NCBI GenBank assembly: GCA_029859805.1
Contig: JAOUCL010000013.1
Span: forward strand, 1-38,435
Reading direction: 5' to 3'
DNA from: Rhodospirillales bacterium
Lineage (GTDB): Bacteria > Pseudomonadota > Alphaproteobacteria > Kiloniellales > JAKSDN01
DNA length: 38,435 nucleotides
Part shown: positions 8,471-30,217 of the stretch, one piece after another
Layout: each line of letters opens with the position of its first letter
How positions within the stretch are numbered: the stretch's first letter is position 1
Position numbers and translations under genes: made by a program
The notes under the pieces: generated by a model
What the model was told of the DNA's origin: nothing
What the model saw: the letters and a program-made list of their open reading frames with translations, nothing else
The model's database searches: none

Positions 8471-8489
8471 TTCTTGATCTACAATTTCA

Positions 8490-9496: not shown

Positions 9497-10588
9497 CTAG
9501 TGAATGCTTGCGTTTTGCAGCAACACAGCCGCGCGCTGCTTGTCGTCGGATGACGTCCAGATCAGGCACCTATCACCCCTGGCATATTTCCTTCGCCAGG
9601 CGGCAATCGCGATGCTTACCAGCACCCCGCCCGAGGCCGCGCCGATGTCACCATAGCAGTCGGCCGGATGCCAGATTTCCAGAGGGTCCCTGTGCCTGGC
9701 ACCGGTCCGAAGATAGCCATAGGTCCACTCTTTACTGCGGAAGCTCTCGCCGTTCAAATCGCAGAGTACCCAGTCGGCCTCCGCGTCCTGTGGGTTAAGG
9801 ACGTCCAGGGCCTTGCGCAGCACCTGCGTCATCCCCTGGCCGATGCAGATGTCGTCCGAGACGAAGGGACTGGGCTCCTCGGCCGTGGCGCCGGACAAGA
9901 CGAAGGCGAACGGATCCAGATTATTGCGCTGCGCAAAGTCCGCAGAGGCAAGCAAACAGAATCCCGCGCCTTCACCCGGCACAAACCCGTCCTTGTTCGC
10001 CTCCGAGTGCAATCGCTTGTCCTCGTCCAGCCACTCGAGAGTATCCGGGTCGAAATAAGACTCGACTCCGCCCACCAGAATCAGGTCTTCCTTGCCTGAT
10101 CCGATCCACTCCAAGGCCTTGGCAATGCTCATCAGCGTGGCGGCATGACCGGTCGAAACCGCAATCCGTTTCTTGCCATGCAGGGGTAGATCGTTATCAG
10201 CCGCCAAGCGCGACAAGAGAATATCTGCGGCATCGGCGTGCAGGCCCGGGCGTGCAGCGCTCATGCCCAGGCACAGGCCGACGCCGGACGCTGCAGCATT
10301 ACCGGAAGGCCCGTCTGTCAGCGGCGCCATCGCTTCTCTAGCGGCCACGGCCGCCAAGGCGTTGAGCCGGTCGGTATTTCGAATGTCGTCATCGATGAAT
10401 TCCGCCATCGACAACAACATCGGCTCGCCGGTCTTGTCGATCAAATAACTCCCTTTGAACCGGGATACATTCGCCCGCACCGAAGCGGCGGTCATCGGCG
10501 CATCGACCCCGACGGCCGTAACCGCTCCGCAGCCGACAATGCAGACCTGCCGCGCTGAATTTCCATTGCCCGGTGCGCTCACCGCCAT
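9497..10588 (-). CDS. ketosynthase (thiolase-fold)-like protein lacking catalytic residues, T6SS tip-associated
   Basis: A 363-residue protein with the overall layout of a beta-ketoacyl synthase: VCIVGCGAVTAVG at the start, DGFVPGEGAGFCLL in the middle (KS 'GEGA' loop) and YGDIGAASGGVLVSIA near the end. By eye the three catalytic positions are all changed: the Cys of 'TACxxS' is His148 in STGHAATL, the first His is Asn279 in CDLNGES, and the second His of 'GHxxGAAG' is Asp314. It therefore cannot be a normal condensing enzyme. Homologous-looking proteins sit between DUF2169 and PAAR genes in other T6SS loci, where their role is unknown. The ATG at 10588 overlaps the DUF2169 stop by one base (TGATG), so translation is probably coupled. 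A structural or chaperone role is inferred. Confidence 0.85.
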   Translation of the reverse strand: MAVSAPGNGNSARQVCIVGCGAVTAVGVDAPMTAASVRANVSRFKGSYLIDKTGEPMLLSMAEFIDDDIRNTDRLNALAAVAAREAMAPLTDGPSGNAAASGVGLCLGMSAARPGLHADAADILLSRLAADNDLPLHGKKRIAVSTGHAATLMSIAKALEWIGSGKEDLILVGGVESYFDPDTLEWLDEDKRLHSEANKDGFVPGEGAGFCLLASADFAQRNNLDPFAFVLSGATAEEPSPFVSDDICIGQGMTQVLRKALDVLNPQDAEADWVLCDLNGESFRSKEWTYGYLRTGARHRDPLEIWHPADCYGDIGAASGGVLVSIAIAAWRRKYARGDRCLIWTSSDDKQRAAVLLQNASIH

Positions 10589-11601
10589 CACACAACCCTC
10601 TTCTCAAAGATTCGAGTTTCTTCTAGCTCGAAGGTCTTGCGGTGGCACGGGAGGCATGTTTGCCATGTCATCACCACTCTCGGCGCATCAGGCTCGATAA
10701 CCACCGATCCAAGGGTGCCACGATGGTTAACCCATCGACCCTCCAATGAGGTCCGAAATCCAAGCCAGACTCGCGGCAGGTGAAAAGCGAGATAACCATC
10801 CGAAGTGAGATTATGCAGTTCGACGGGCTCGCCGCCTTTCAGATGCGGCGAGAAGGTGAGATCCGGACTTGCCCCCAAAAAGTACCGAAAATCGAAATCG
10901 AGCGGGTAGAGCGGCAATCGGTTCTCGATATAGTCTTGATCACAGGTTCCGATATATTGTCGCCTGGGCTCCCAGTGCTTGCAGGTGAACCCCAAGCCTG
11001 CCGGATTTGGCCGGCTCTTCCAACTCTTGACCTGGTCCGCCGGGTCCTCGAAATTGGGCAAAGGCCTGTCCTTTAGGACCGCTTCGGTCATAGCAAACCC
11101 GGCGCCAATGGGGTTCCGCGCCTCGGCGCCCTGCTTTTTCGGATCTTCATCTGACAGATCCGTACCGCCGAAGGCCCGCTCGTATCCTATGGGCATCTGG
11201 GTAAAGGCTTGCGGCGACGAGATCGACAGGCCGCCGATCGAGCCCTTCCAGTATCGGTCGCCAAACACGCGAATGGTCTTCCTCCGGTCACCAATCCTGA
11301 TCTGAGCATCCAGCTTGGACACCGGTCGTCCGTGGGGGGCATAGGCGTGCCCATTGATGGCGACGTCGGTGCCCGGCTTCTTGAAGACCAGCTCGCCCTC
11401 GTATTTCAGACTGGAGATACCCGGCTCGCCGAAGTATTCGTCCACTAGACAGACGGGTTCCTGTTCATCCGCCAACTCCGGTTCCCCGTTCTTGATATCG
11501 AAGGTCGCCTTCACGGCGACCACCCAGATTTCCGATCCGTCGATATCTAGGAGAACGGCGTTTTCAGCTTCGTAGGGGGTTCTATTATCCAGCTGGAGCA
11601 T
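10588..11601 (-). CDS. DUF2169 family T6SS adaptor/chaperone
   Basis: A 337-residue protein matching the DUF2169 family: N-terminal NRTPYEAENAVLLDIDG and WVVAVKATFDI, the GRPVSKLDAQIRIGDRRKTIRVFGDR segment in the middle, YERAFGGTDL, ARNPIGAGF, and the C-terminal VVMTWQTCLPCHRK motif. DUF2169 proteins are encoded with PAAR-like effectors, and one from Agrobacterium (Atu3641) is reported as an adaptor that helps load such an effector on VgrG. Here it lies between the DUF6484-type gene (12 bp upstream) and the ketosynthase-like gene (TGATG overlap). It probably brings the PAAR-like nuclease to VgrG. The family call is secure; the partner is inferred from gene order. Confidence 0.92.
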   Translation of the reverse strand: MLQLDNRTPYEAENAVLLDIDGSEIWVVAVKATFDIKNGEPELADEQEPVCLVDEYFGEPGISSLKYEGELVFKKPGTDVAINGHAYAPHGRPVSKLDAQIRIGDRRKTIRVFGDRYWKGSIGGLSISSPQAFTQMPIGYERAFGGTDLSDEDPKKQGAEARNPIGAGFAMTEAVLKDRPLPNFEDPADQVKSWKSRPNPAGLGFTCKHWEPRRQYIGTCDQDYIENRLPLYPLDFDFRYFLGASPDLTFSPHLKGGEPVELHNLTSDGYLAFHLPRVWLGFRTSLEGRWVNHRGTLGSVVIEPDAPRVVMTWQTCLPCHRKTFELEETRIFEKRVV

Positions 11602-11613
11602 AGTGGTTTCGAA

Positions 11614-12054
11614 TCAGTTGATCTTGACCGCGGCCCCTTTGATCTTGTTGACGCCGCGCGCTCGACTGACCAATCGATCCCCTTTGACTACGATTTTTCC
11701 CTCGTTGCTCATGGTCACAGAGCCGTTACCGCAGCGGAGTTCGATTCGCCGATTAGCCTCTAGATGGAGATTGTCGGGGATCTCAGGGACCGTGCTGTAT
11801 CGTTCTACAAGGCCCAGAACGCAGCCACGTTCGCCGGAATCACCGGCGATGTAGATCACTTCGTCTCCCGTGCTGAGCCTGGGAGCAGGACCAGCGCTCG
11901 TCCGCAGAAAATCGCACGCCAATACGCAGTCTCGTGCCCCATCCTCGACCAGGATCGTCCCATCGGGATCTATCGCGACGATACGCCCGCGCGAAACACG
12001 CAATGTGTCAAGTATCTGCTTCGCCGCCGCTAACCTGTGAATCTCGGCGCTCAT
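11614..12054 (-). CDS. DUF6484/DUF3540-type VgrG-associated protein
   Basis: A 146-residue soluble protein. The first half is a small beta domain (GRIVAIDPDGTILVEDG; GDEVIYIAGDSGERGCVLGLV) reminiscent of the OB-fold gp5-like part of VgrG. The second half is a short repetitive beta stretch (ANRRIELRCGNGSVTMSNEG; DRLVSRARGVNKIKGAAVKIN) very like the C-terminal blade of VgrG or DUF2345 proteins. This pattern matches DUF6484 (or the similar DUF3540). Its ATG follows the vgrG stop codon with no intervening base. It may extend or seal the VgrG beta-prism before the PAAR-like tip is added, or help assemble it; that role is an inference. Confidence 0.85.
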   Translation of the reverse strand: MSAEIHRLAAAKQILDTLRVSRGRIVAIDPDGTILVEDGARDCVLACDFLRTSAGPAPRLSTGDEVIYIAGDSGERGCVLGLVERYSTVPEIPDNLHLEANRRIELRCGNGSVTMSNEGKIVVKGDRLVSRARGVNKIKGAAVKIN

Positions 12055-14232
12055 TTAGTTCTCCCCGATCTTTGATCCCTTGAGCTTGATGTCGCCGGAC
12101 GCCTTCGCATCGATCTTGCTGCCATCGAGCTTGATGTCCGTGCCCTTGATCAGAATCTCGCCGCCGCTCTTCAACACGATCTGAGCCCCGCCGCACTTGA
12201 GCACCAGCTCACTGGCCGCATCAACCGAACCCTTGGCATCCGTCTTCGCGCTGAAATCACCACCTGACTTCAGGCTCATCTTCCCGCCGGCCGAGGCCGA
12301 GAAATCGCTGCCCGCGGACTCCGTGATCTTCGATCCCGCATTCACGGATTTGCTGACCCCCACTTGCTCGGTGCTGACTCCCCCCACCGCGACGATCTTG
12401 GCGCCGCCGATCTCCTCGGCCTTGGCGCCACCGACGGTTTCGTTCATGGCGGCGCCCACGCTCACCTGGTAGGCCGCGCCGATGGTAAGCGCCTTGGCGA
12501 TCGAGATGCTTTCGGATTTGTTTGACCCGACACTGACCGTCTGGTTCGCGCCGACGCTTTCGGTCTGGTTGGCCCCAACGGTCATCGTCTGGTCGACCCC
12601 CACGGTGACGCTCTGGTTGTTGCCAACACTCTCCGTGTCGTCCACGTCGATGGTGCTGGTTCGGTTGTTGTGCACCGTCAAGGTCTGGTCGTTCTCGATC
12701 GTCGAATCCATGTTGTATTGGCCGTGGATCGTGATCTTCTCTTTGCCCTTCGTATCGTCCATAGACATTTCGTTGTAGCCGCCGCCGCCCTTGGTGCTGT
12801 TCGACTTGAGGCCGCTGATCACCGCGCTGGCGGGCAGGCCGTAAGGCGGCATGCAGTCGCCGTTGTAGACGCGGCCGGTGATGATCGGCTGGTCCGGGTC
12901 GCCCTCGAGGAAGTCGACGACCACCTCCTGCCCCATGCGCGGGATCGCGACGGCGCCCCAGCCCTTGCCGGCCCAGGGATGCGAGACGCGGATCCAGCAC
13001 GAACTGTTCTCGTCGGACTTGCCCTCGCGGTCCCAGTGGAACTGCACCTTGACCCGGCCGTGCTTGTCGGTCCAGATCTCCTCGCCCGACTTGCCGACCA
13101 CGATCGCCGTCTGCGGCCCCTGCACCACCGGCTTGGGCGTGACGCGCGGCGCGCGGAACTGCCGCTGGCCGTCGATCGCGGTGAATCGGCAGTGGCAGAG
13201 CGTCTCGCCCTTGGCGGCGCTCTGGGACTCGTAGTCGTCCGAGCGCAGCTCGACCGCGCTCGAGACGATCAGGTACTCCCGGTTCTGGTCCTCGCGCGGA
13301 TAGTCGGTTAGCTCGAACAGGCCGCCGGAGGCAAGCCCGGCCACGTCGCCCTCGCCCTCGACCCGCTCGAACTGGCAGTGCAGCTCCTCCAGGCGGACCT
13401 TGGCGTAGGTGTCGCCGTCGCCGCTGGTCAGGTATTCGCCGGGATAGTCGTAAACCTCGCACTCGGCCTGGCCGTGCTCGAAGGGCTTGTTGAGGCGCAC
13501 CTCGAGGTCCGCCTTGGGCTTCTCGAAGTCGAAGTCCCTCAGCGTGTAGGAACCCGGCTGCACCTCCTTCTGCACCGACCAGCCGGAAACGTGGTCGCGC
13601 TCGCGCTGGCCGCCCTCCTCCGGCGGATAGTAGGGCACCTGCTCGTAGCCGGCACTCGGCTCGTGCGCGCTCGCCCCGTCGGCCAGCACCAAGGTGTGCT
13701 TGCCGTCCTCGTGCAGGAAGTAATAGTAGATGCCCTCCTGCTCCATCAGGCGGCTGACGAAGTTGAAGTCCGTCTCGCGGTACTGCACGCAGTATTCCCA
13801 AGTGCGGTAGCTGCCGCTCAGCTTGTCCTCGAAGTCCGTGAAGCCCTGGTCGCCGAACACCTGCTTGATGATGTCCGGCACCGTCTTCTCCTGGAAGATG
13901 CGATTGTCGGCGGTGCGCGTCAGGAACCACAGCCAGGGCCTCAGCGTCGCCCGGTAGCGTGCGAAGTTTCCCGACGCGCCCGTGTAGCAGAACTGGCTGG
14001 CGAAGCCGTTGAAGTACCGCATCTCCCCGCTCTGCGGCATGTCCAGGCGGACCGTCAGATTCTGGCCCAGCACGTCCTCGAGCTCGATCTCGTGGTCCTC
14101 GCTGAGCAGGTCCAGCTCGAAGGCCGACAGGCGGCCCAGCGTCTCGCTCGCCCGCATGCCCCGGAACAGCAGCACGTCCTCGCCGAGAGGACTGGAGACG
14201 GCGATCCGTCTTTCAGCCTGCTTTAGCAACAT
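12055..14232 (-). CDS. vgrG: VgrG (TssI) spike protein with long C-terminal beta-helix
   Basis: The 725-residue spike trimer subunit. The N-terminal gp27-like part is at about 1-380 (SPLGEDVLLFRGMRASETLG; YYYFLHEDGKHTLVLAD). The gp5-like OB domain follows, with the family signature EIWTDKHGRVKVQFHWDREG and SHPWAGKGWGAVAIPRMGQEVVVDFLEGDPDQP. After TGRVYNGDCMPPYGLP comes a gp5_C-like beta-helix of short repeats (VGANQTESVGANQTVSVGSN and similar) that runs to the end, finishing in alternating Lys/Gly/Ser blades. There is no C-terminal enzyme domain, so cargo must come from separate proteins, consistent with the genes downstream. A GGGGAG ribosome-binding site precedes the ATG. It is the first gene of the leftward spike operon. 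Confidence 0.97.
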   Translation of the reverse strand: MLLKQAERRIAVSSPLGEDVLLFRGMRASETLGRLSAFELDLLSEDHEIELEDVLGQNLTVRLDMPQSGEMRYFNGFASQFCYTGASGNFARYRATLRPWLWFLTRTADNRIFQEKTVPDIIKQVFGDQGFTDFEDKLSGSYRTWEYCVQYRETDFNFVSRLMEQEGIYYYFLHEDGKHTLVLADGASAHEPSAGYEQVPYYPPEEGGQRERDHVSGWSVQKEVQPGSYTLRDFDFEKPKADLEVRLNKPFEHGQAECEVYDYPGEYLTSGDGDTYAKVRLEELHCQFERVEGEGDVAGLASGGLFELTDYPREDQNREYLIVSSAVELRSDDYESQSAAKGETLCHCRFTAIDGQRQFRAPRVTPKPVVQGPQTAIVVGKSGEEIWTDKHGRVKVQFHWDREGKSDENSSCWIRVSHPWAGKGWGAVAIPRMGQEVVVDFLEGDPDQPIITGRVYNGDCMPPYGLPASAVISGLKSNSTKGGGGYNEMSMDDTKGKEKITIHGQYNMDSTIENDQTLTVHNNRTSTIDVDDTESVGNNQSVTVGVDQTMTVGANQTESVGANQTVSVGSNKSESISIAKALTIGAAYQVSVGAAMNETVGGAKAEEIGGAKIVAVGGVSTEQVGVSKSVNAGSKITESAGSDFSASAGGKMSLKSGGDFSAKTDAKGSVDAASELVLKCGGAQIVLKSGGEILIKGTDIKLDGSKIDAKASGDIKLKGSKIGEN

Positions 14233-14546
14233 CTCCGCTCCCCATTCACCGCGATGTTATCGCAGTCGGCGCAGATTGCCTAGGCAAAGGAACACGTTGC
14301 CCTTGGATCGTCGCACGCTTTTCGCGGTGCGTCCCGGGCCTGCCCCAAGTGCCTCGATCTTGCTCGTGCCACCATCCGACGGCCGGAGCCGCTTGGCAGT
14401 GAGTATAATCACATCGCTAGTGTGATGGTTCCGAAGATCGCCACATTCGATGTGACGAACTTCGGCGCTTCGTCTCGGCAGGCATGCACCGTTCCGGGGC
14501 CCTTTGTGATAGAATCGCCTCGTCCCCACCAGAAGGAGCGACCGTC
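14233..14546. promoter_or_regulatory. divergent intergenic region between vgrG and the sheath-fusion gene
   Basis: This 314-bp gap must hold the start signals for both the leftward vgrG operon and the rightward TssB-TssC-like gene. It contains a 12-bp perfect palindrome TTGCCTAGGCAA at 14276-14287, 44 bp from the vgrG start. A TATAAT hexamer lies on the + strand at 14404-14409, with no convincing -35 at normal spacing. It overlaps an inverted repeat ATCACA-N7-TGTGAT at 14408-14426. I could not find a sigma-54 type GG-N10-GC promoter. The promoter assignments are only candidates. Confidence 0.45.
14408..14426. promoter_or_regulatory. inverted repeat ATCACA-N7-TGTGAT, possible operator
   Basis: Two perfect 6-bp arms separated by TCGCTAG, overlapping a TATAAT hexamer, 121 bp upstream of the start of the sheath-fusion gene. 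The position suits a repressor site for that gene. The half-sites are CRP/FNR-like sequences but in the reverse arrangement, so no regulator is proposed. Confidence 0.25.
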
Positions 14547-16100
14547 ATGCCTGGACCGCTCGAGTTCGAGTTCCGCTTTGCCCGCCCCGACGGCCGGCCG
14601 GCCCGGCGGCGCGACGCGGAAAGCCCCTTCCGCATCCTGGTCATGGGCGATTTCAGCGGCGGGTGCCCGCGCGCCGAAGCCGGCCGCCTCGAGGACCGGC
14701 CGCTGATCCCGGTCGACATCGACAATTTCGACCGCGCGGTCGCCCGGCTGGCACCGCGGGCGGCCATATCCCTCGAGGGCCGGGCCGCCGACGCGCAGGA
14801 GATCGCCTTCGGCGCGCTGGACGACTTCCACCCCGACGCGCTGGCACCGAAGCTCGAGGTTTTTCGAGAGCTGTGGCGGCTGCGCGAACGCCTACTCGAT
14901 CCGGCCACATTCGAGGAAACCGCCGCCGGTATGACACGGGACGCCGAACAAGCGTCCGCGTCGGAAGACGGACCCGGTCCCGCCCCGGACGCCGCGCCGG
15001 ACGCCGCGCCGGAGGACCACGGCGCGACTTTCGAGCGGTTGCTCGGTCGCCGGGTCGAGCCTGGGACGGACGCCGGAGGACCGACGGTCGCGCAAACCGG
15101 CGCCACCCGAGAGCTGATCGAGCGCCTGGTCGAGCCGCACCTGGTGCGCGGCGCCGACCCGGAGCGCCAGCGCCTGCTGGTCGCCGCGGTCGACGACGGG
15201 CTCGCCCGAGAGATGGCCGCGGTGCTGCATGACCCGGCGTTCCAAACGCTGGAGGCGGCGTGGCGCGGACTCTACTGGCTGGCGAGCAGCCTGGAGACCG
15301 GCGAGGAGCTGTCCATCCACCTGCTCGACGCGAGCAAGCAGGAGTTGGCGGCCGACATCGGGGCCGCGGGCGCCGAGCTGGAGGCCTCGGCGCTGTACCG
15401 CAGGCTGGTCGAACAGCGCGCGGAGGGACCGGACGGCGAGCCCTGGTCGCTGATCGTCGGCGACTACCGCTTCGGGCCGGCGGAGGAGGATCTGAGTCTG
15501 CTGGCCGCGCTCGGCGCGATCGCATCGCGGGCCGGCGGGCCGTTCCTGGCGGCGGCCGATCCCGCGCTGCTCGGCTGCCGCAGTCTGGCCGAAACACCCG
15601 ACCCCGGCGACTGGACCGGGCTCGATCCCGAGACCGCGGGAGCCTGGCAGGTGCTCCGCCGCTCGGCGGTCGGGCCCTGGATTGGACTGGCGTTGCCGAG
15701 GGTGCTGTTGCGCCTGCCCTACGGCCGCCAGACGGATCCGATCGAGGCCTTCGCCTTCGAGGAGTTGCCGGGGGTGCGGGAGCACGAGGCCTACCTCTGG
15801 GGCAATCCGGCCTTCGCCTGCGCGCTTCTGATCGGGCAGGCCTTTCAGGAGAACGGTTGGGAGCTGCAGCCGGGCGACCGGCTCGACATCGCGGACCTGC
15901 CGGCGCACAGCTATACAGAGGAGGGCGAAAGTCGGCTCAAGCCCTGCGCCGAGGTCCTGCTGAGCCAGCGCGCGGCCGAGGCGGTGCTCGCCCGCGGCAT
16001 CATGCCGCTGCTGAGCCACCGCAACGCGAACGCGGTCCGTGTCCTGCGCTTTCAGTCGCTGGCCGAGCCGCCCACTGCCCTGGCGGGGCCCTGGGCCTAG
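14547..16100 (+). CDS. TssB-TssC-like fused sheath protein, C-terminally short
   Basis: A 517-residue protein joining both sheath families. Residues about 26-135 follow TssB: FRILVMGDFSG, RPLIPVDIDNFDRAVARLAP and FGALDDFHPDALAPKLEVF align with the equivalent parts of the TssB at 29687-30217. An acidic Ala/Pro linker follows (about 140-180). Residues about 195-517 follow TssC: LEAAWRGLYWLASSLETGEEL, WSLIVGDYRFG, GLALPRVLLRLPYGRQTDPIE, LWGNPAFACALLIGQAF and GIMPLLSHRNANAVRVLRFQSL. It stops where canonical TssC still has about 95 residues, so the C-terminal part used for sheath interlocking is absent. Start: the ATG at 14547 has AAGGAG eight bases upstream. Canonical tssB and tssC are present elsewhere in the window, so this is an extra copy, perhaps a sheath cap or length regulator (inference). 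Confidence 0.9.
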   Translation: MPGPLEFEFRFARPDGRPARRRDAESPFRILVMGDFSGGCPRAEAGRLEDRPLIPVDIDNFDRAVARLAPRAAISLEGRAADAQEIAFGALDDFHPDALAPKLEVFRELWRLRERLLDPATFEETAAGMTRDAEQASASEDGPGPAPDAAPDAAPEDHGATFERLLGRRVEPGTDAGGPTVAQTGATRELIERLVEPHLVRGADPERQRLLVAAVDDGLAREMAAVLHDPAFQTLEAAWRGLYWLASSLETGEELSIHLLDASKQELAADIGAAGAELEASALYRRLVEQRAEGPDGEPWSLIVGDYRFGPAEEDLSLLAALGAIASRAGGPFLAAADPALLGCRSLAETPDPGDWTGLDPETAGAWQVLRRSAVGPWIGLALPRVLLRLPYGRQTDPIEAFAFEELPGVREHEAYLWGNPAFACALLIGQAFQENGWELQPGDRLDIADLPAHSYTEEGESRLKPCAEVLLSQRAAEAVLARGIMPLLSHRNANAVRVLRFQSLAEPPTALAGPWA

Positions 16101-17434
16101 CCCGGCCTCTGCGCCAGGACCACGAGGCCGGCCACGGCCTTGCCGCCTTCCTTGCGCAGGACATCGTCCTCGAGCGAGCGGAGCGCGAGTCCGGCCCCGG
16201 CCAGGCTCCGCCGGACGTAGTCCTTGGTATGGCTGTAGCGGCCATGGGGACCCAGGCGGAATCCGGCGTCTTCATCCTGTCCGGCGTTTTCCAGCGTGAA
16301 CACCAGACGTCCGCCGGGCCTGAGCGCGCGGGCCGCCGCCGCCAGGACCGCTTCCAGTGCGCCGAAATAACAGAGCGTGTCGGCCGAGGCGATCAGATCG
16401 TAGGCCCCGGCCTGGCCTTCGAGGAACGCGGTCAGCTCGGCCGCCTCCAGCGCGTCGTAGACGCCGCGCCCCTTGGCCTTGGCGAGCATGGCCGGCGACA
16501 GGTCGACCCCGGTCAGGCGCCGGGTGTAGGGCGCGAGCAACGGCCCGCACAGCCCAGTGCCGCAGCCGGCGTCGAGCACGTCGAGCCCTCCGGCCGGCGC
16601 ACCCAACTCCGCGGCGAGGCAGGCCGTGATCAGCGCCGGCGCCCGGTACTCCAACTTGTCCAGCACGCGCTCGAAGCTGCCGGCGAAGCCCTCGAACATC
16701 TGCCGCACGACCTGGTCAGACGCGCGCTCCGGCACGTCCCGGCCCGTCGAGGCCGCCAGCATATGCCGGGCCAGCGCATTGTCCGGATCCCGGTCCAGCC
16801 ATTTTTGGTAGACCGCCGCGGCCTCGTCGAGCCGGCCGGCCGCGTAGTACACGCTGCCGAGCACGAGATAGCTCTTGGAATCGCCGGGCAGAACTTCGAT
16901 CGCCCTACGGCAGGCCGCCGCCGCCTCGTGGTACTTGCCCTGGCGGCGCAGCACGTTGCCCAGGTTCTGCAGGGCCTGAACGCTGTCGGGCATGAGCGCG
17001 AGCGCCTTGCGGTAGATCTCGGCGGCCTCGTCCAGCTTGCCCTGCTCCTTGAGCACGACGCCGAAATTGCCGTAGGCATCCGGGTCGTCTGGCCGGAGCG
17101 CGATGACCTTGCGGTAGGCGGCCGCGGCCTCGTCCAGCCGGCCCAGTTCCGAAAGCACGTTGCCCAGGTTATTGTGCATGTCGGCGTGGTCGGGCAGCCG
17201 CGCGATGGCCCGTTCGATCAGCGTGACCGCGGCCTCGCCATCGCCGGTCTGATGCGACAGCACCCCCAGGTAATGGAGCGCGTCGGGCTGCTCCGGCTCG
17301 GCCTCCAGCACCTCACGGTACAGCGCCTCGGCCTCATCGAAATGGCCGCCCTTGTGCAGCTCGAGCGCAAAGGCCAGCGCCTCGGCCAGCGTGAGCTGCT
17401 GGCCCTTTTCTTTGCTGCCTCGCCCTCGGGTCAT
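16097..17434 (-). CDS. TPR-repeat protein with C-terminal SAM-dependent methyltransferase domain
   Basis: A 445-residue protein. Residues about 15-235 are six or so tetratricopeptide repeats (for example HADMHNNLGNVLSELGRLDE and DAYGNFGVVLKEQGKLDEAA). Residues about 250-445 are a class I methyltransferase: motif I VLDAGCGTGLCG, then LTGVDLSPAMLAKAKGRG, YDLIASADTLCYFG and LRPGGRLVFTLEN. The substrate is unknown. TPR-methyltransferase fusions of this type are common in alphaproteobacteria outside T6SS loci, so a link to secretion is not assured. It converges with the sheath-fusion gene, and the single tetranucleotide CTAG at 16097-16100 supplies the TAG stop of both genes. The start is an ATG at 17434 with no strong ribosome-binding site. 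Confidence 0.93.
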   Translation of the reverse strand: MTRGRGSKEKGQQLTLAEALAFALELHKGGHFDEAEALYREVLEAEPEQPDALHYLGVLSHQTGDGEAAVTLIERAIARLPDHADMHNNLGNVLSELGRLDEAAAAYRKVIALRPDDPDAYGNFGVVLKEQGKLDEAAEIYRKALALMPDSVQALQNLGNVLRRQGKYHEAAAACRRAIEVLPGDSKSYLVLGSVYYAAGRLDEAAAVYQKWLDRDPDNALARHMLAASTGRDVPERASDQVVRQMFEGFAGSFERVLDKLEYRAPALITACLAAELGAPAGGLDVLDAGCGTGLCGPLLAPYTRRLTGVDLSPAMLAKAKGRGVYDALEAAELTAFLEGQAGAYDLIASADTLCYFGALEAVLAAAARALRPGGRLVFTLENAGQDEDAGFRLGPHGRYSHTKDYVRRSLAGAGLALRSLEDDVLRKEGGKAVAGLVVLAQRPG

Positions 17435-20250: not shown

Positions 20251-23010
20251 TCACTCGAACCCGTAACTGAACTCGCCTCCCTCGACGGTCACATGCACCC
20301 GCTCCACCGGCTTGCCTTCCACCATACGGGTCAGGAACTCGCTGCTGATCCTGGGCAGCACGGTGTTGGTCAGGATCGCGTCGATCATGCGCCCGCCGCT
20401 TTCCAGCTCGGTGCAACGTTCGGTTATGAGTTTCACCACGTCCTCGTCGTAGGTGAAGGGGATCTTGTGGTTCTCGGCGATCCGCTTTTCGATGCGGCCG
20501 AGCTGGAGCCTGGCGATCGCGGCGATGATCTCGTCGTTCAGCGGATAGTAGGGGATCACGACGAGCCGTCCCAGGAGCGCCGCCGGGAAGACCTTCAAGA
20601 GCGGCTCGCGCAGGCCCTTGGCGATACCCTCGGGCTCGGGCATCAGGTCCGGGTCGGCGCACATGCTCATGATCAGGTCCGTGCCGGCGTTGGTGGTCAG
20701 CAGGATCAGCGTGTTCTTGAAATCGATCACGCGGCCCTCGCCGTCCTCCATCCAGCCCTTGTCGAAGACCTGGAAGAAGATCTCGTGGACGTCGGGATGG
20801 GCCTTCTCGACCTCATCCAGCAGCACCACGCTGTAGGGCCGGCGCCGGACCGCCTCGGTCAAGACCCCGCCCTCGCCGTAGCCTACGTAGCCGGGCGGCG
20901 CGCCCTTCAGGGTCGAGACCGTATGCGCCTCCTGGTACTCGCTCATGTTGATCGTGATGACGTTCTGCTCGCCGCCGTAGAGCGCCTCGGCCAGCGCCAG
21001 CGCGGTCTCCGTCTTGCCGACGCCCGAGGTGCCGGCCAGCATGAAGACGCCGATCGGCTTATTCGGGTTGTCCAGGCTGGCGCGCGAGGTCTGGATGCGC
21101 TTGGCGATCATGTCGAGCGCGTGGCGCTGGCCGATGATGCGCTGCTCGAGCGTGTCGGCCAGGTGCAGCACCGTCTCGATCTCGTTCTTGACCATGCGGC
21201 CGACCGGGATGCCGGTCCAGTCGCCGACCACCGAGGCGACCGCCTGATGGTCGACGCTGGGCAAGATCAGCGGCTGCTCCCCCTGGAGATCGGCGAGCTC
21301 GGCCTGCAGTCCCTTGAGCTGCCCCAACAGCTCCGCCCGCTCGGCTTCGGAGAGATCGCCCTTGGGCGTGGCCTCGGCACCGGTCTCGACCGCGACGGAA
21401 TCGGCGGCCTCGTCGGCGGCGGTCTCCAGCTCGCTTTCGGTGCCTTCGACCTTGCCGATGTGGCCGCGCAGCTGGGCGCGCAGCTCCAGGATCTGCTCGA
21501 CCAACCCCTTCTCCTCGTCCCAGCGTTCCTCCAGGAGCTTCAGGCGGTCCTTCTCGGCCATCAGTTTGTCGTTGGCCTCGGCCTCGCGCGCCGCCGTCTC
21601 GACGCCGACCGCCTTCTCGCGGCCGATGATCCCGAGCTCGGTATCGAGCGCCTCGATGCGCCGGCGGCTGTCGTCGACCTCGGCCGGAACGGCGTGCTGG
21701 CTGATCGCGACCCGCGCGCTCGCCGTATCCAGCAGGCTGACCGACTTGTCGGGCAGCTGGCGGGCCGGGATGTAGCGGTGCGACAGCTTGACCGCGGCCT
21801 CCAGCGCCTCGTCGAGGATCTGCACGCGGTGGTGCTGCTCCATGGTGGAGGCGATGCCGCGCATCATCAGGATGGCCTTCTCCTCGCTGGGCTCGTCGAC
21901 CAGGATCGACTGGAACCGGCGAGTCAGCGCGGGGTCCTTCTCGATGTGCTTCTTGTATTCGGCCCAGGTCGTGGCGGCGACGGTGCGCAGCGTGCCGCGC
22001 GCCAGCGCCGGTTTTAGCAGGTTGGCCGCGTCGCCGGTCCCGGCCGCGCCACCGGCCCCGACCAGGGTATGGGCTTCGTCGATAAACAGGATGATCGGCT
22101 TCTCCGAGGACTGCACTTCGTCGATCACCTGGCGCAGGCGGTTCTCGAACTCGCCCTTCATGCTGGCGCCCGCCTGCAACAGGCCGACGTCGAGGCTGCG
22201 CAGGGTGACGTCCTTCAATGGTGGCGGCACGTCGCCAGAGGCGATGCGCAACGCGAAGCCCTCGACCACCGCCGTCTTGCCGACCCCGGCCTCGCCGGTC
22301 AGGATCGGGTTGTTCTGCCGGCGCCGCATCAGGATGTCGACGATCTGGCGGATCTCCTCGTCGCGGCCGACGATGGGGTCGAGCTCGCCCTTGCGCGCCC
22401 TCTCGGTCAGGTCGACGGAGAACTGGCGCAGCGCTTCCTGCTTGCCCATCTGCGAGGGCGCCATGGCGCCGCTCGCCTCGCCGGGCGCCGCGCCGCCACC
22501 GACTTGGAAGCCGTCCGAGGCCGCGAGCGCGTCTTCGGGCGAGCCGCCGACGACCTCGTCGAAGCGGTCTCCCAGGGTGTCCAGCTTGACCTTCTCGAAC
22601 TCGCGGGACATGCCGAGCAGAGCGTTGCGCAGGCCGGGCGTCTTGAGGATGCCGAACACCAGATAGCCGGTGCGCACCTGGGGTTCGCCGAACAGCAGGG
22701 TGCCGTAAACCCAGCCCCGCTCAACCGCCTCCTCGATATGGGCGGACAGGTCCGAGATGGAGGTCGATCCGCGCGGCAGCCGGTCCAGGGCGGCGGTCAG
22801 GTCCTGCGCGACGCGGGACGGCTCGAGGTTGAACTGCTTGATGATCCGGTGCAGGTCGGAATCCTGCAGCTGCAGGATCTGGTGCAGCCAGTGCACGAGC
22901 TCGACGTAGGGGTTGCCACGCATCTTGCAGAAAACGGTGGCGCTCTCGATGGACTTGTAGCCAAGGCTGTTCAGCTTGCCGAACAGGGCGGTGCGACTGA
23001 TCTCAGGCAT
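20251..23010 (-). CDS. clpV: ClpV (TssH) AAA+ ATPase, sheath disassembly
   Basis: A 919-residue AAA+ unfoldase that recycles contracted TssB/TssC sheath. It has an N-domain at 1 to about 165 (ISRTALFGKLNSLGYKSIES), a first Walker A GEAGVGKT near residue 237 with Walker B IILFIDEAHTLVGAGG, and a ClpB-type coiled middle domain around 430-560. A second Walker A GTSGVGKT lies near 658, with SVVLLDEVEKAHPDV, and a C-terminal D2-small domain follows. The start MPEISRTALF at 23010 is chosen because a GGGGGAG ribosome-binding site precedes it; an upstream in-frame start adds nine unconserved residues. Spacing to tssG is 131 bp. The middle domain has an extra acidic Ala-rich insertion (EGTESELETAADEAADSVAV). 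Confidence 0.97.
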   Translation of the reverse strand: MPEISRTALFGKLNSLGYKSIESATVFCKMRGNPYVELVHWLHQILQLQDSDLHRIIKQFNLEPSRVAQDLTAALDRLPRGSTSISDLSAHIEEAVERGWVYGTLLFGEPQVRTGYLVFGILKTPGLRNALLGMSREFEKVKLDTLGDRFDEVVGGSPEDALAASDGFQVGGGAAPGEASGAMAPSQMGKQEALRQFSVDLTERARKGELDPIVGRDEEIRQIVDILMRRRQNNPILTGEAGVGKTAVVEGFALRIASGDVPPPLKDVTLRSLDVGLLQAGASMKGEFENRLRQVIDEVQSSEKPIILFIDEAHTLVGAGGAAGTGDAANLLKPALARGTLRTVAATTWAEYKKHIEKDPALTRRFQSILVDEPSEEKAILMMRGIASTMEQHHRVQILDEALEAAVKLSHRYIPARQLPDKSVSLLDTASARVAISQHAVPAEVDDSRRRIEALDTELGIIGREKAVGVETAAREAEANDKLMAEKDRLKLLEERWDEEKGLVEQILELRAQLRGHIGKVEGTESELETAADEAADSVAVETGAEATPKGDLSEAERAELLGQLKGLQAELADLQGEQPLILPSVDHQAVASVVGDWTGIPVGRMVKNEIETVLHLADTLEQRIIGQRHALDMIAKRIQTSRASLDNPNKPIGVFMLAGTSGVGKTETALALAEALYGGEQNVITINMSEYQEAHTVSTLKGAPPGYVGYGEGGVLTEAVRRRPYSVVLLDEVEKAHPDVHEIFFQVFDKGWMEDGEGRVIDFKNTLILLTTNAGTDLIMSMCADPDLMPEPEGIAKGLREPLLKVFPAALLGRLVVIPYYPLNDEIIAAIARLQLGRIEKRIAENHKIPFTYDEDVVKLITERCTELESGGRMIDAILTNTVLPRISSEFLTRMVEGKPVERVHVTVEGGEFSYGFE

Positions 23011-23141
23011 TTGCAATCTCCCCCGGCATCGGTGCAATCGCAGTCAGATCGCCCGGCGCCTATTCGTTTCGCTGGTTTTCGTCTCCCTCGATCCGCCGAA
23101 CCGGCCGGATGATCGAGCATCTCCGGTGGAAGGCGCCGCCG

Positions 23142-24173: not shown

Positions 24174-26014
24174 CGCATGACCTCTCCGCGGTCCATGGAT
24201 TTCAGGACCGTTTCGGTGAATGAGTTTATGGAAACGTATCGCGCAAAGAACTGTTCGAGCACGACGCCGAGCAGAAAGATACCGGTTCCCTCGAAGGCCG
24301 ATTCGTCCAGGGTCACCGCGACCTCGAGCCCACGGGCGAAGGAGATCGGGCCGGATCCCAGGACACGCCGGTTGACCGGCCTCGAGGCCACCGAGACGAC
24401 CCCGTCGATCTGCTTCCTGATCGAGGCCTCGCTGGTCGCACCGTAGAGCGCCAACAGCTGTCGCAGCGCGCCGGCGCCCTGTTCCTGGTCCTGGTCCGTC
24501 AGCGACAGGTAGTTGAGCGAAAGATGGCTGATCAGCTGCCAGGCAACCTCGCGCTGGGCGTGCGAGGGCCGGGGCCTGGTGGGCCCGGCAAGACAGCGCA
24601 CCGAATCGACCGGCGCTCCCGATTCCATCGTGAAATCGGTCTTGCTCGCCCCCACCGGCATGTGCAGCGGCAAGTCCCGGTTGGTGCAGAGCGTCGTGAG
24701 CGCCAGCTGGCGGAGGTTGCCGCTGTAAGGCGCCTCGTTGGCATCGACCAGGGACACGAACACTTCGCTGCCGATGTAACTGGAGCGGGGACCCTGGCCA
24801 CGCTGTCGGGACGACAAGACGCGGGGCGTGCGATGCAGCGTGTAATAGGCCAGGTTTTCGCTGTAATCTGCCACGTCGCTCGTGCCGTAGAACGGCCGGA
24901 ACTCCTGCTTGTGGTCGGCGCTCGTCCCGAACCCCAGAACCTCCGTCAGAGCATAGACCTCGAAGTCCATCGGCCGGCTCCGGTCCGGGACGATGTGATG
25001 CTCGGTCTGCCTGTCGGTCAGGTGGATCCGGTCGGCACGCTTCTCGAACAGATTGATCGCCGGTGCGCAGAACAGGGCGAAGTGCGAGGCGTCGACCGTG
25101 TTGTCCAGAACCGGATCATTGCTGTTCAGCAGCACGAGGATGTCGAGCTCGTTGTCCGCGCAGCGGCGTACACCGGACCCCAAGCCGTTCAGTTCGACCA
25201 TCATGTAGCGCTCGGGAAAGGCAAAGTACTCCTGCAGGAAGCGATAGCCCTGGAACGAGCGCGGGCCGTAGGGCAGCAAGGCCTGTCCGTCGTCGAAGCC
25301 GAGCGGGCGGATGTTGGTCTTGGCGACCATCTCGCGCCATTTTCCCGACCCCTTCGCCGGCTGCAGAACGATCGCCAGCGGATTGGCGACCAGCTGCTCG
25401 AACAGACGCATGGGCAGTTCCTCGGTGCCCCGCAGATAGAGCTGCAGACTGTCCATCGGAAGCTGGTCGAAAGTCAGGCCCGCCGTGGTCCGAAAACGCC
25501 ATCGAAAACCGGCCTTCACCCCAGAAAGCTCGGTGATACCGAGCGCCGCCACCGCCGCCGTCGACCCCAGATATTCGGCTTCGACCAGTTCCAGCGGCCA
25601 GAGTGTCACGTCGTGCGCCGTGCGATAGTCGCAAGGGGTCTGGTCTCCCTTGCCCAGGCGAGAGCGCAGCACGCTGCCGCGCGGCACGACAAAGCCCTCG
25701 CCCAAAGCGCCCTCGGTCAGATCCGGCTGGAATTCGACCATGGCCATAGACGGCATCGGCGCAAGATAATGCGGGTAGACCATGTCGAGCAGGTGCTGGG
25801 TGAAGCGCGGAAACTCCGCGTCGACCTTCAACTGCACCCGCGCGGCCATGTAACCGAAGCCTTCCAGGAGCCGCTCGACATAGGGGTCGGCGCAATCGAA
25901 ACCCTCGAGCCCTAGCCGCGCAGCTATCTTCGGGTATTCCTTGGCGAACTCCCCGCACATTTCCCGAATGTGCTGGAGCTCGCGGTTGTAGTAGCGCAGC
26001 AGCCTGGGATCCAT
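24137..26014 (-). CDS. tssF: TssF (ImpG) baseplate wedge protein
   Basis: A 625-residue baseplate subunit. It starts MDPRLLRYYNRELQHIREM, with GEFAKEYPKIAARLGLEG and DPYVERLLEGFGYMAARVQL, the family hallmark. Further on are VYPHYLAPMPSMAMVEF, a central FDQLPMDSLQLYLRG, and the C-terminal LFLRT-free beta region ending GQRHVL. The ATG at 26014 shares one base with the tssE stop (TGATG), which fixes the start; the frame is open upstream only because of tssE's shadow. It works with TssG and TssE around the VgrG hub. Nothing unusual was noted. Confidence 0.97.
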   Translation of the reverse strand: MDPRLLRYYNRELQHIREMCGEFAKEYPKIAARLGLEGFDCADPYVERLLEGFGYMAARVQLKVDAEFPRFTQHLLDMVYPHYLAPMPSMAMVEFQPDLTEGALGEGFVVPRGSVLRSRLGKGDQTPCDYRTAHDVTLWPLELVEAEYLGSTAAVAALGITELSGVKAGFRWRFRTTAGLTFDQLPMDSLQLYLRGTEELPMRLFEQLVANPLAIVLQPAKGSGKWREMVAKTNIRPLGFDDGQALLPYGPRSFQGYRFLQEYFAFPERYMMVELNGLGSGVRRCADNELDILVLLNSNDPVLDNTVDASHFALFCAPAINLFEKRADRIHLTDRQTEHHIVPDRSRPMDFEVYALTEVLGFGTSADHKQEFRPFYGTSDVADYSENLAYYTLHRTPRVLSSRQRGQGPRSSYIGSEVFVSLVDANEAPYSGNLRQLALTTLCTNRDLPLHMPVGASKTDFTMESGAPVDSVRCLAGPTRPRPSHAQREVAWQLISHLSLNYLSLTDQDQEQGAGALRQLLALYGATSEASIRKQIDGVVSVASRPVNRRVLGSGPISFARGLEVAVTLDESAFEGTGIFLLGVVLEQFFARYVSINSFTETVLKSMDRGEVMRWSPRIGQRHVL

Positions 26015-26529
26015 CAGCCGGTTCCCGATGCGGTGGAGTCCGAGACGGAGAAACTGCCGGAGTCCAGATCGATCTCTGTCCTCAGGAAAAGGTGCAAGGG
26101 GACCGGCTGGGCCCACAGATCGCCTTCGATCTCGAAAGCCACGGCGTTGCGGTTCATCTGGTCGCTGGCGACCACGGAACGGACCTTGACCGTGTTGCGC
26201 AGAATGCGCGGCTCGAAGTCCCAGATCGCTTGGCGCAGCATGCGCTCCACCCCGGCCAGGTCTATACCCGAGGCGGCCTTGCCCGCCAGGTCCGGCAACC
26301 CGTAATTGATCACCGAATGGCTCACCAGGGGATACTCGTCCAAATCCTGGACCGTCTCGAGGTTGCTGGAGTTGAGCAGCCACGCGAGGTCGCGCTGGAC
26401 GCTCTCGCGCAGTTTGCGCATCGACAGGACCCGCTTTTCACGGGCTTCCTGCTGTTGGTCCGGCTCGTTGTCGGTCAACCGATCCAGGAGAGAGGGCTGC
26501 AGGCGTTCCTTTGGCGTCAGCTCCGCCAT
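26014..26529 (-). CDS. tssE: TssE (gp25-like) baseplate protein
   Basis: The 171-residue gp25-like T6SS baseplate protein. It opens MAELTPKERLQPSLLDRLTD, with LRESVQRDLAWLLNSSN, the YPLVSHSVINYGLPDLAG motif, and LRQAIWDFEPRILRNTVKV, the region of the conserved 'EPR' core of gp25. It ends with a short Ser/Thr-rich tail. The start at 26529 follows the tagJ stop (TAG) by one base and uses the G-rich end of tagJ as ribosome-binding site. A longer frame would add 20 Arg-rich residues that are the shadow of tagJ. Confidence 0.96.
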   Translation of the reverse strand: MAELTPKERLQPSLLDRLTDNEPDQQQEAREKRVLSMRKLRESVQRDLAWLLNSSNLETVQDLDEYPLVSHSVINYGLPDLAGKAASGIDLAGVERMLRQAIWDFEPRILRNTVKVRSVVASDQMNRNAVAFEIEGDLWAQPVPLHLFLRTEIDLDSGSFSVSDSTASGTG

Positions 26530-26530
26530 C

Positions 26531-27376
26531 CTAGTCCCCTGCGACCGGCTCGTCGGCCCCGGGCGCCGCCGCCGCCTCGCCCTGAGCATCCGTGTCGAGC
26601 GCGATCAGGCGGACATCCATCAGCGGATAATCGTCCGCGTCGGTGGTCAGTATCCGCTGCCCCATTCCAAGATAAACGCCCGATTCCGGCTCGAGCCACT
26701 CGGTCCTGCGGCTCATGCGGACCAGCATGTCGTCGCTGACCTCCGAGCCCGGGTAGCGGGTGGGGATCAGTCCGACCGTACCACCGCCGTTGGACCAGAT
26801 GAGCTGCGCCGGCGTCCAGACGAGATCGCGCAGGTCGACGGGCTCCTCGACGCGAATTTCCCGAATGCGCTCGAAGGGAACCCAATAGTAGGCGCCGTTG
26901 ACGACGACCTCCAGGACCGGGCCCAGCCGCTGATCGGCGTCGGCGATCCATTCGAAGGCCTGCCCGTCGATCGTGCCCGAGGTCGCCGGCGCCAGATCGA
27001 AGGCCTCGTCGCGCAACGCCTGCGCGCCGACGTGGTCGCCCTTGGCGGTCGGGCGCAGCGCCTCGATCAGGAGGGCCACCCATTTTTCCGGCTTGCCGAA
27101 CACCAAGGGAGTGCTATTGCCTGCGAAGATGTTCGCCCGAAGCACTTCGCAGCGCAGGGCCTCGCGATAGGTCTGAACCATGGCGAGCGTGCCGGCGTCG
27201 AGCTCGCCGGCCACCTTCAACTGCGTGGCGGCACGGTTCCAGTCGCCCAGGACGGCCAGCAACTGGAACAGGAAAACACGATGGCCCGCATTGGCGGGGT
27301 CCTTGCGCACCTGCTCCTGGAGCTGCGCCAGGGATTCGTCGAGACTGCCGTCGCGTAAACTCTGCTCCGCAAACAT
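26531..27376 (-). CDS. tagJ: TagJ (ImpE/SciE) T6SS accessory protein
   Basis: A 281-residue protein of the ImpE/TagJ family. In Pseudomonas TagJ binds the N-terminus of TssB and modulates ClpV action on the sheath. The N-terminal TPR-like helices are at 1-130 (LAQLQEQVRKDPANAGHRVFLFQLLAVLGDW). The C-terminal beta domain has FEWIADADQRLGPVLEVVVN, YYWVPFERIREIRVEEP, DLRDLVWTPAQLIW and LIPTRYPGSE, all typical. A GGGGAGGG ribosome-binding site lies six bases before the ATG. Its location between hcp and tssE is as in the rhizobial imp locus. Confidence 0.95.
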   Translation of the reverse strand: MFAEQSLRDGSLDESLAQLQEQVRKDPANAGHRVFLFQLLAVLGDWNRAATQLKVAGELDAGTLAMVQTYREALRCEVLRANIFAGNSTPLVFGKPEKWVALLIEALRPTAKGDHVGAQALRDEAFDLAPATSGTIDGQAFEWIADADQRLGPVLEVVVNGAYYWVPFERIREIRVEEPVDLRDLVWTPAQLIWSNGGGTVGLIPTRYPGSEVSDDMLVRMSRRTEWLEPESGVYLGMGQRILTTDADDYPLMDVRLIALDTDAQGEAAAAPGADEPVAGD

Positions 27377-28197: not shown

Positions 28198-29694
28198 TCA
28201 AGCGGCCTTGGCCGAGGGCAATTTCGAGACCAACCGTAACGACACCGTGAGCCCCTCAAGTTGATAATGAGGCCTGAGATAGAATCTCGAGGTGTAGTAG
28301 CCAGGATTGCCCTCGACCTCCTCGACGACCACCTCAGCCGCGGCAAGCGGCTTCCGGGCCTTCGTGTCCTCGCTCGAATTGGCCGGATCGCCGTCCACGT
28401 AGTTAAGGATCCAGTTGTTGAGCCAGGTCTGCATATCGGCACGTTCTTTGAACGAGCCGATCTTGTCCCGGACGATGCACTTGAGGTAGTGAGCGAAGCG
28501 GCAGGTCGCAAAAAGATACGGCAGTCGCGCCGCCAGGTTCGCATTGGACGTGGCGTCCGGGTCGTCGTACTCCGCCGGCTTCTGTAGCGACTGGGCGCCG
28601 ATGAACGCGGCAAAGTCGGAGTTCTTCTTGTGAATCAAGGGCATGAATCCGTTTTGCGCGAGCTCCGCCTCGCGCCGGTCGCTGATCGCGATCTCGGTCG
28701 GACACTTCATGTCGACGCCGCCGTCGTCGCTCGGGAAGGTGTGGGTCGGCAGACCCTCCACGGAGCCGCCGGATTCGATGCCCCGGATCCGCGAGCACCA
28801 GCCATACAGCTTGAACGACTTGTTGATGTTCGTCGCCATGGCATAGGCGGAGTTGGCCCAGGTGTACTTCTGGTGGTCGGCGCCCTCGGCATCTTCTTCG
28901 AAATCGAACTCCTCGACCGGGTCGGTCTTCGCGCCATAGGGCAATCGGGCCAGGAACCGCGGCATGGCGAACCCGATATAGCGGGAATCCTCTGATTCGC
29001 GCAACGAGCGCCAGGACGCGTACTCCGCCGTCTGGAAGATCTTGGTCAGATCCCGCGGGTTGGTCAGCTCCTGCCAGCTATCCATCTGCAGGAGCGAGGG
29101 CGCGGCTCCGGTGATGAAGGGCGCGTGGGCTGCGGCACAGACCTGGCCCATCTCGTTCAGGAGCTCGATGTCGGGCGGACTGTGATCGAAGTGGTAGTCG
29201 CCGACCAGACAGCCATAGGGCTCGCCGCCGAACTGGCCGTACTCCTCCTCGTAGACCTTCTTGAAGATCGGGCTCTGATCCCAAGCCGTGCCCTTGAACT
29301 TCTTCAAGGTCTTGTGCAGATCCTTCTTGGAGATGTTGAAGACGCGGATCTTGAGCATCTCGTCGGTTTCGGTGTTGTTGACCATGTAATGCAGGCCGCG
29401 CCAGGCACCTTCGAGCTTCTGGAAATCCTCGTGGTGCAGGATCAGGTTGACCTGCTCGGTCAGCTTCCGGTCGATCTCGGCGATGATCGCTTCGATCGAA
29501 TTTACGGTGTCGCTCGAAACCACCGTCGAATCGGCGAGGACGTATTCCGCCAGGGTCTGCACGGCGGTCTCGACCGCTTCCTTGGTGCGGTCCGACTTGG
29601 GCCGGAATTCCTTGGTCAGCAGCGTGCTGAATTCGTCGGCCTCGATCGTTTCGGCTTCGGCCTGCACTTGTTTTTCCGTATCAACGTCAGCCAT
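28198..29694 (-). CDS. tssC: TssC (VipB) sheath large subunit
   Basis: The canonical 498-residue large sheath subunit: FQKLEGAWRGLHYMVNNTET, PYGCLVGDYHFDHSPPDIEL, FAMPRFLARLPYGAKTDPVE, YTWANSAYAMATNINKSF, GFMPLIHKKNSDFAAFIGAQ and the complete C-terminal region (ARLPYLFATCRFAHYLKCIV through LEGLTVSLRLVSKLP). The start MADVDTEKQVQ at 29694 overlaps tssB by 8 bp; a longer frame adds 30 Arg-rich shadow residues. It is the comparison point for the shortened TssB-TssC fusion at 14547-16100, which ends just after the AQSLQKP position. Confidence 0.98.
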   Translation of the reverse strand: MADVDTEKQVQAEAETIEADEFSTLLTKEFRPKSDRTKEAVETAVQTLAEYVLADSTVVSSDTVNSIEAIIAEIDRKLTEQVNLILHHEDFQKLEGAWRGLHYMVNNTETDEMLKIRVFNISKKDLHKTLKKFKGTAWDQSPIFKKVYEEEYGQFGGEPYGCLVGDYHFDHSPPDIELLNEMGQVCAAAHAPFITGAAPSLLQMDSWQELTNPRDLTKIFQTAEYASWRSLRESEDSRYIGFAMPRFLARLPYGAKTDPVEEFDFEEDAEGADHQKYTWANSAYAMATNINKSFKLYGWCSRIRGIESGGSVEGLPTHTFPSDDGGVDMKCPTEIAISDRREAELAQNGFMPLIHKKNSDFAAFIGAQSLQKPAEYDDPDATSNANLAARLPYLFATCRFAHYLKCIVRDKIGSFKERADMQTWLNNWILNYVDGDPANSSEDTKARKPLAAAEVVVEEVEGNPGYYTSRFYLRPHYQLEGLTVSLRLVSKLPSAKAA

Positions 29695-30217
29695 CTGAAC
29701 CCTCCTCCGTCGCAGCCTCTTCTTCGGGCTTCGGCGCCGATACCAATGATTGCAGCAAGGCCGGATCCTGCATGACCTTGGCAATCAGCTCCTCGGCGCC
29801 GGTCTTGCCGTCCATATAGGTCACCAAGTTCGAAAGCTGGGTCCGTGCCTCGAGCAGCTTGCGCAGCGCCCCCACCTTGCGAGCTACGGCGGCGGGCGAG
29901 AAATCGTCCATGCTCTCGAAGGTGATGTCGAGATTCAGGTTGCCGTCGCCCGTCAGCGTATTTGGCACCTGAAAAGCGACACGAGGTTTCATCGCCTTCA
30001 AGCGGTCGTTGAAATTGTCGACGTCGATCTCCAGGGCCTTACGATCGGCGACGGCGGGCAGGGCCTCCTCCGGCTTGCCCGACAGATCGGCCAACACGCC
30101 CATCACGAAGGGCAGCTGGACCTTCTTTTCCGCGCCGTAGAGCTCTACGTCGTATTCGATCTGTACGCGCGGTGCTCGGTTCCGCGCTATGAACTTCTGA
30201 CTACTCTGCTTTGCCAT
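29687..30217 (-). CDS. tssB: TssB (VipA) sheath small subunit
   Basis: The 176-residue small sheath subunit: RVQIEYDVELYGAEKKVQLP, FVMGVLADLSG, ALEIDVDNFNDRLKAMKPRV, ITFESMDDFSPAAVARKVGA and LRKLLEARTQLSNLVTYMDG. The C-terminal tail is acidic (EEEAATEEGSDG). A perfect AAAGGAGG ribosome-binding site is eight bases upstream of the ATG. It overlaps tssC by 8 bp, so the two subunits are made in step. The N-terminal region is where TagJ binds in other species. Confidence 0.98.
   Translation of the reverse strand: MAKQSSQKFIARNRAPRVQIEYDVELYGAEKKVQLPFVMGVLADLSGKPEEALPAVADRKALEIDVDNFNDRLKAMKPRVAFQVPNTLTGDGNLNLDITFESMDDFSPAAVARKVGALRKLLEARTQLSNLVTYMDGKTGAEELIAKVMQDPALLQSLVSAPKPEEEAATEEGSDG

Follow-up and report, generated by a model that had tools for sequence, protein, structure and literature searches.

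Background

The closest described relative of the protein reported here is TssCL of roseobacters (Leisingera, Ruegeria and others), which was predicted to be a TssB-TssC fusion carrying two VipA and one VipB domain. TssCL was found only in Alphaproteobacteria and was considered recent (PMC9515649). The idea of a TssB-TssC fusion is already known from that description; what is added here is the breadth and age of the fusion family, the finding that precisely domain 1 is lost, and the presence of complete secretion systems in the same genomes.

The assembly of canonical sheaths has been described at the level of single strands. In the Pseudomonas aeruginosa sheath, each TssC contributes two strands of its own to the inner domain 1, and two neighbouring subunits bring the sheet to four strands: one TssC provides its C-terminal strand and one TssB its N-terminal strand (PMC5807055). 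The TssB N-terminal and TssC C-terminal strands enter domain 1 of the ring nearer to the baseplate (PMC5807055, PMC5813253), and in the wild-type sheath TssE is thought to take the linkers of the first ring (PMC5813253). In addition, TagJ binds the TssB N-terminus (PMC4239648), and residue D333 of VipB is required for contraction (PMC5797969). In the T6SS, the end of sheath growth and its coupling to the loaded spike are still poorly understood.

A TssB-TssC fusion gene between the T6SS cluster and vgrG

The window, a stretch of 38,435 nucleotides from a Rhodospirillales bacterium, holds a T6SS cluster, with tssL, tssK and tagH located on another contig of the same genome. On the minus strand, from 31376 down to 20251, the gene order is tssA, tssB, tssC, hcp, tagJ, tssE, tssF, tssG and clpV. 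After clpV come a TPR-methyltransferase gene, the fusion gene on the plus strand, and a divergent vgrG with the spike module (Table 1). No sigma-70-like site was found in the intergenic region between vgrG and the fusion. A TPR-methyltransferase between clpV and vgrG is kept in several T6SS clusters (G007, G520 and G586).

The accessory spike set at 9497-12054 on the minus strand (TvpC-like, DUF2169 and PRK06147-like proteins) resembles the class II Tvp complex (PMC13373197). The Tox-PAAR-like protein and the TsiV-type protein of the spike module are probably an antibacterial effector-immunity pair. At 4301-5089 on the plus strand there is a gene for a 262-aa protein with no Pfam or NCBIfam match. 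Its homologues adjoin the fusion in L100, lie one gene away from it in L098, and are found near tagF in G007. This protein is a possible candidate for a partner of the fusion.

Table 1. Coordinates of the fusion gene, its parts and neighbouring genes in the window
Feature	Position	Strand	Evidence
TssB-TssC fusion gene, 517 aa, without VipB_2	14547..16100	+	Pfam, BLAST, family tree, structure model
LEFEFRF (aa 5-11), perhaps what is left of the TssB N-terminal donor strand	14559..14579	+	alignment
TssB-like (VipA) half, aa 22-118	14610..14900	+	Pfam PF05591 T6SS_VipA, E 6.7e-17
FERLLG, aa 162-167, in the variable linker, at the position of the TssC N-terminal ClpV-associated helix	15030..15047	+	
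TssC-like (VipB) half, aa 211-500	15177..16046	+	Pfam PF05943, E 1.3e-64; Z 32 vs P. aeruginosa TssC1
LAGPW, aa 512-516, C-terminal LxGxW motif; canonical TssC runs on into domain 1 here	16080..16094	+	
Tox-PAAR-like protein and neighbouring TsiV-type immunity gene (VRR-NUC class)	7493-9482	-	
PRK06147-like ketosynthase-fold protein (PA0098 type)	9497..10591	-	NCBIfam NF004798, E 5e-73, under its cut-off
DUF2169 (TvpA-type) spike chaperone	10588..11601	-	Pfam PF09937
Small TvpC-like spike-module protein	11614..12054	-	position and spike-like C-terminal sequence; no family match; PMC13373197
vgrG, divergent from the fusion	12055..14232	-	Pfam
Intergenic region between divergent vgrG and fusion	14233..14546	.	
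TPR-methyltransferase protein, convergent with the fusion; the two stop codons share one CTAG (16097-16100)	16097..17434	-	
clpV (tssH)	20251..23037	-	72% to roseobacter ClpV
tssE (gp25-like), stand-alone relative of the domain absent in the fusion	26014..26589	-	Pfam PF04965
Canonical tssC, VipB and VipB_2	28198..29694	-	Pfam
Canonical tssB, TagJ-type N-terminus SQKFIARNRAPRVQIEYDVELYG	29687..30217	-	

The fusion is a single open frame of 517 aa that starts with an ATG at 14547, preceded by AAGGAG, and ends with a TAG at 16098-16100. A first-pass annotation of this DNA had read the gene as a fusion of TssB and TssC, and Pfam and BLAST confirmed both its coordinates and its domain reading. Only one VipA domain is present, and the product is 28% identical to the TssB of the window (8e-14) and 32% identical to its TssC (3e-55). 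Pfam gave no match to VipB_2 in the fusion, whereas the TssC of the window has both VipB and VipB_2. Scores against the NCBIfam equivalogs for TssC (TIGR03355, 219 bits) and TssB (TIGR03358, 59.6 bits) lie under the curated cut-offs of 271.5 and 97.25 bits, respectively. The TagJ-type N-terminus found in the canonical TssB of the window (SQKFIARNRAPRVQIEYDVELYG) is absent from its fusion, and the canonical signatures RESED, SGG and DRREAEL are eroded. Residue Q474 aligns with D333 of VipB, a position where relatives mostly have E or D. The C-terminal LxGxW motif is present in most fusions.

Absence of the inner handshake domain

The alignment of the fusion with TssC ends at TssC residue 373 of 498, so that ~125 residues are missing as judged by sequence. 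Judged by structure, the deficit is ~100 residues, since the last model residue, 517, falls on residue 397 of TssC1. The absence of the TssC C-terminus, as annotated at first, was upheld, and the earlier figure of about 95 residues was too low. The fold was predicted for the lone chain from a 9-row alignment, with a pLDDT of 77.5 and a pTM of 0.77. Residues 203-517 of the model match TssC1 63-397 (Z 32) and end at the border between domain 2 and domain 1. Since this match stops at TssC1 397, the fusion has lost its two acceptor strands as well as the C-terminal donor strand, by sequence and in the model, and not the last strand alone. The lone-chain model thus lacks handshake strands, and the earlier description of a protein lacking its last strand was correct but understated, as the whole inner domain is absent by Pfam and in the model.

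Over both halves, residues 24-517 of the model align with the sheath proteins of PVC and AFP, which are single chains (Z ~18); packing of the two halves into a single sheath domain is therefore predicted. A helix was predicted at 158-165 in the linker. Residues 1-21, including LEFEFRF, have a pLDDT below 50 and are disordered in the lone model; the LEFEFRF segment is strand-like and, judged from the alignment, may serve as a TssB-type N-terminal donor strand. We have hardly any doubt that the protein is a single-chain TssB+TssC protomer that has kept the middle and outer domains of the sheath and has no inner handshake domain.

Phylogeny, distribution and selection

Relatives of the fusion were sought in 84,980 species genomes, in plasmids and in samples of whole genomes. 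A profile made from 13 fusions scored 320-710 bits with fusions versus 225-292 bits with canonical TssC. Many plasmid and genome matches, such as L036 and L037, proved to be read-through of adjacent tssB and tssC with a stop inside, and were left out. No fusion relatives were found among viral contigs. A tree of the TssC part was built from 27 fusions, 21 canonical TssC and 5 second-TssC paralogues. The fusions form one clade with 100/100 support, and both other groups fall outside it. This clade spans Gamma-, Beta- and Alphaproteobacteria, Acidobacteriota and Planctomycetota, and all 27 fusions end at the border between domain 2 and domain 1. Second full-length TssC genes directly after canonical tssC (L104:764-2422, L113:10519-12063 and L010-L018) form a separate clade.

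The values of dN/dS in close fusion pairs, 0.06-0.26, show that these pairs are under purifying selection. The fusion gene is rare. Two further genomes carry it in a Pseudomonadota sample (n=398) and one further genome in the class of the window (n=385), while in the Acidobacteriota sample, the phylum of G455 (a MAG), it was found in 11 of 199 genomes, seed counted. Between the window and five relatives, identity is 40-53% for the fusion and 77-83% for TssC. Such low conservation suggests that the fusion may touch the lattice over a small surface, and its rapid divergence argues against full integration in the lattice.

Association with the T6SS and genomic context

TssK and a VipB_2-bearing TssC are present in 21 of 23 fusion genomes. 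The remaining two (G458 and G459), the only ones without TssK, are fragmentary MAGs; no sound case of a fusion in a T6SS-free genome was found. Of the 199 genomes in the Acidobacteriota sample, 37 have TssK, and every one of the 11 fusion genomes belongs to those 37 (p about 2e-9, or 1e-5 when six syntenic orphans are counted once). The fusion is tied to the T6SS yet dispensable, as same-genus and same-order genomes run a T6SS without it. Two genomes of the same genus, one of them 97% complete, have tssBC 96-99% identical and no fusion, and in G007, an order-level relative, the TPR-methyltransferase gene and vgrG are directly adjacent with no fusion between them.

Near T6SS genes we found 15 of the 27 fusions. 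Among these 15, 11 have vgrG or a TvpC-like gene as their neighbour (window, L027, L028, L031, L032, L042-L044, L098, L100 and L101), three have tssK (L035, L041 and L091) and one has tagH (L104). The divergent orientation of vgrG and fusion, correctly described in the first-pass annotation, is also seen in Competibacteraceae, and G520, a genome of the Acidobacteriota sample, has the gene order of the window: clpV, TPR-methyltransferase and fusion, with vgrG divergent from the fusion. No T6SS genes were found within the ~20 kb read around eight of the 27 fusions. Six of these eight (L092-L096 and L099) seem to be one lineage, located near mnmG-parAB, with the T6SS elsewhere in the genome. The other four fusions have short flanks, in which no T6SS genes were recognised. 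We considered whether the unlinked Acidobacteriota copies belong to another contractile system and rejected this, the neighbours being mnmG, parA, parB, tatC and other housekeeping genes. The spike linkage, present in 11 of the 15 T6SS-linked fusions, is thus common, and yet it is not a rule, eight fusions being unlinked.

The DUF2169/ketosynthase spike module, to which the gene had been proposed to belong, lies beside the fusion in the window and in G586, and a DUF2169 gene lies beside it in G520. This membership is thus only partly supported, as other fusions are found beside vgrG where no DUF2169 was detected, beside tssK or tagH or, in six related genomes, beside mnmG-parAB; an exclusive tie to the module was not seen.

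The linker helix and ClpV

The class of the linker helix equals that of the cognate TssC helix in 22/22 cases, the classes having been defined after the sequences were seen and the tree showing two switches only (sign test p 0.5). Fusions with [FL].[RKQ]L[LTVI] accompany a cognate TssC with the F..LL form, and those with LLDAIL, FLDSIM, LLQSAL or similar accompany a cognate TssC with LLDxI or LLxxA. A plain alignment permutation of this co-variation gave p 0.04. The pattern is a hint that the fusion and the cognate sheath share one ClpV.

Possible function of the fusion

We tentatively propose, from the sequences and the structure model, that the fusion may be an accessory sheath-like protomer that stops or holds back sheath growth, as an end-cap or assembly brake, coordinated with the spike in many genomes and removed by ClpV; we find this reading plausible but cannot call it probable. 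The fusion might dock on a sheath ring, or on TssE as a platform, by means of side contacts and of its N-terminal strand of TssB type. The strands of the next ring would find no acceptor in it, nor would it have a C-terminal strand to donate, and for this reason it would stop or hold back the growth of the sheath. In many genomes its action would be matched to one particular VgrG spike, and ClpV would remove it through the helix kept in the linker. A protomer that can add to a sheath but not pass the interlock on, as first suggested, would be consistent with the published sheath geometry (PMC5807055, PMC5813253). The suggestion of a dedicated first ring fared worse and is disfavoured, because nothing in the fusion could receive ring 2; a ring without domain 1 cannot carry the second one unless TssE supplies domain 1. 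On a broader scale, in a generalisation that we regard as doubtful, these proteins could be a widespread and largely overlooked class of chain-terminating protomers. They would act as naturally occurring dominant-negative forms of TssBC, capping or restraining the sheath up to their removal by ClpV, and would often be encoded with, and so tied to, particular VgrG spikes. With precisely the interlock domain missing, such a natural protomer offers a ready probe of how sheath growth ends and is coupled to a loaded spike.

Arranged around TssE, the fusion (domains 2 and 3) could instead form a composite protomer that couples a particular loaded VgrG to the start of the sheath. Such a baseplate adaptor is rather unlikely in our judgement. 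The domain contents of TssE and the fusion are complementary, fusion genes adjoin vgrG, tssK or tagH, and sheath paralogues are generally known from the baseplate maps of extracellular contractile injection systems; in our structure comparison, baseplate sheath paralogues ranked above other sheaths, but with ties, and this ranking was not counted as evidence. However, relatives with a similar TssE have no fusion, and the eight members with no T6SS gene in the ~20 kb read do not fit a baseplate role well.

It is unlikely that the fusion is a soluble regulator acting outside the machine, where it would compete for ClpV or for free TssB and TssC, tuning disassembly or blocking premature polymerisation. 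While the retained ClpV-type helix, the eroded signatures together with fast evolution, and the unlinked copies, which act in trans, would agree with this role, it leaves the linkage to spike genes unexplained, and the near-canonical TssB domain of the roseobacter proteins (77-81% identical to the cognate TssB) suggests contact with the lattice.

The sharpest form of the end-cap explanation is a chain-terminating subunit placed at the distal end only, where it would set sheath length. As the strands enter domain 1 of the baseplate-nearer ring, a protomer without domain 1 could only be the last (PMC5813253, PMC5807055). Even so, we consider this restricted form quite improbable. The window cluster encodes TssA, and TssA-type proteins serve the distal sheath end in studied systems. 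Finally, a functionless decaying gene or assembly error can be dismissed as extremely improbable, for although absence from same-genus genomes and low conservation would agree with it, the single clade across phyla, the common end point, purifying selection, an intact frame with a ribosome-binding site, and the divergent vgrG arrangement repeated in Competibacteraceae and G520 rule out a frameshift artefact or the random pseudogene mentioned in the first-pass annotation.

Comparison with known systems

Like the protein of the window, TssCL has a divergent VipA followed by VipB in one chain, with separate tssB and tssC also present. Its TssB'-TssC' part is in one clade with the window fusion (100/100), and in three roseobacter loci TssCL lies just upstream of vgrG. 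The two differ in size, TssCL having 1213-1565 aa in the roseobacter loci examined here and 1,684 aa in its description (PMC9515649) versus 517 aa in the window. TssCL begins with an additional TssB that is near-canonical, continues with a long acidic linker and ends in an acidic tail; the window fusion has none of these. The passages available from the TssCL description make no mention that VipB_2 is missing (PMC9515649). Between this N-terminal TssB and the TssB'-TssC' module there are 494-826 acidic linker residues, and an extra near-canonical TssB on an acidic tether suggests that TssCL is physically attached to the sheath. The linker contains many short hydrophobic repeats, such as DDLDDLLGDL. 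The annotated starts of the TssCL genes L042:13015-16656, L043:12013-16710 and L044:12571-16719 lie 150-421 codons past the first good start, which hides the near-canonical N-terminal TssB. The published view of fusions as a recent roseobacter peculiarity (PMC9515649) is revised here, the module being older and present across phyla. TssCL is a derived branch within the fusion tree, and the window fusion is the minimal form of the family. The annotated records examined here label the fusion simply as 'contractile sheath large subunit'.

A possible role at the end of the sheath would be shared with TssA, TagA and other end or length factors, which to our knowledge belong to families unrelated to the fusion. 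The single-chain sheath proteins of phage tails, PVC and AFP, with a sequence identity of about 10-13% to the fusion, keep domain 1 and polymerise. The middle and outer domains are homologous, by sequence and fold, to those of the TssB/VipA + TssC/VipB protomer (PDB 5N8N, 3J9G and 5MXN), from which the fusion differs in being one chain and not two, without domain 1 and without the TagJ-binding TssB N-terminus. The sheath initiator TssE (gp25) is also a partial protomer; TssE corresponds to the inner domain alone, whereas the fusion is all but the inner domain.
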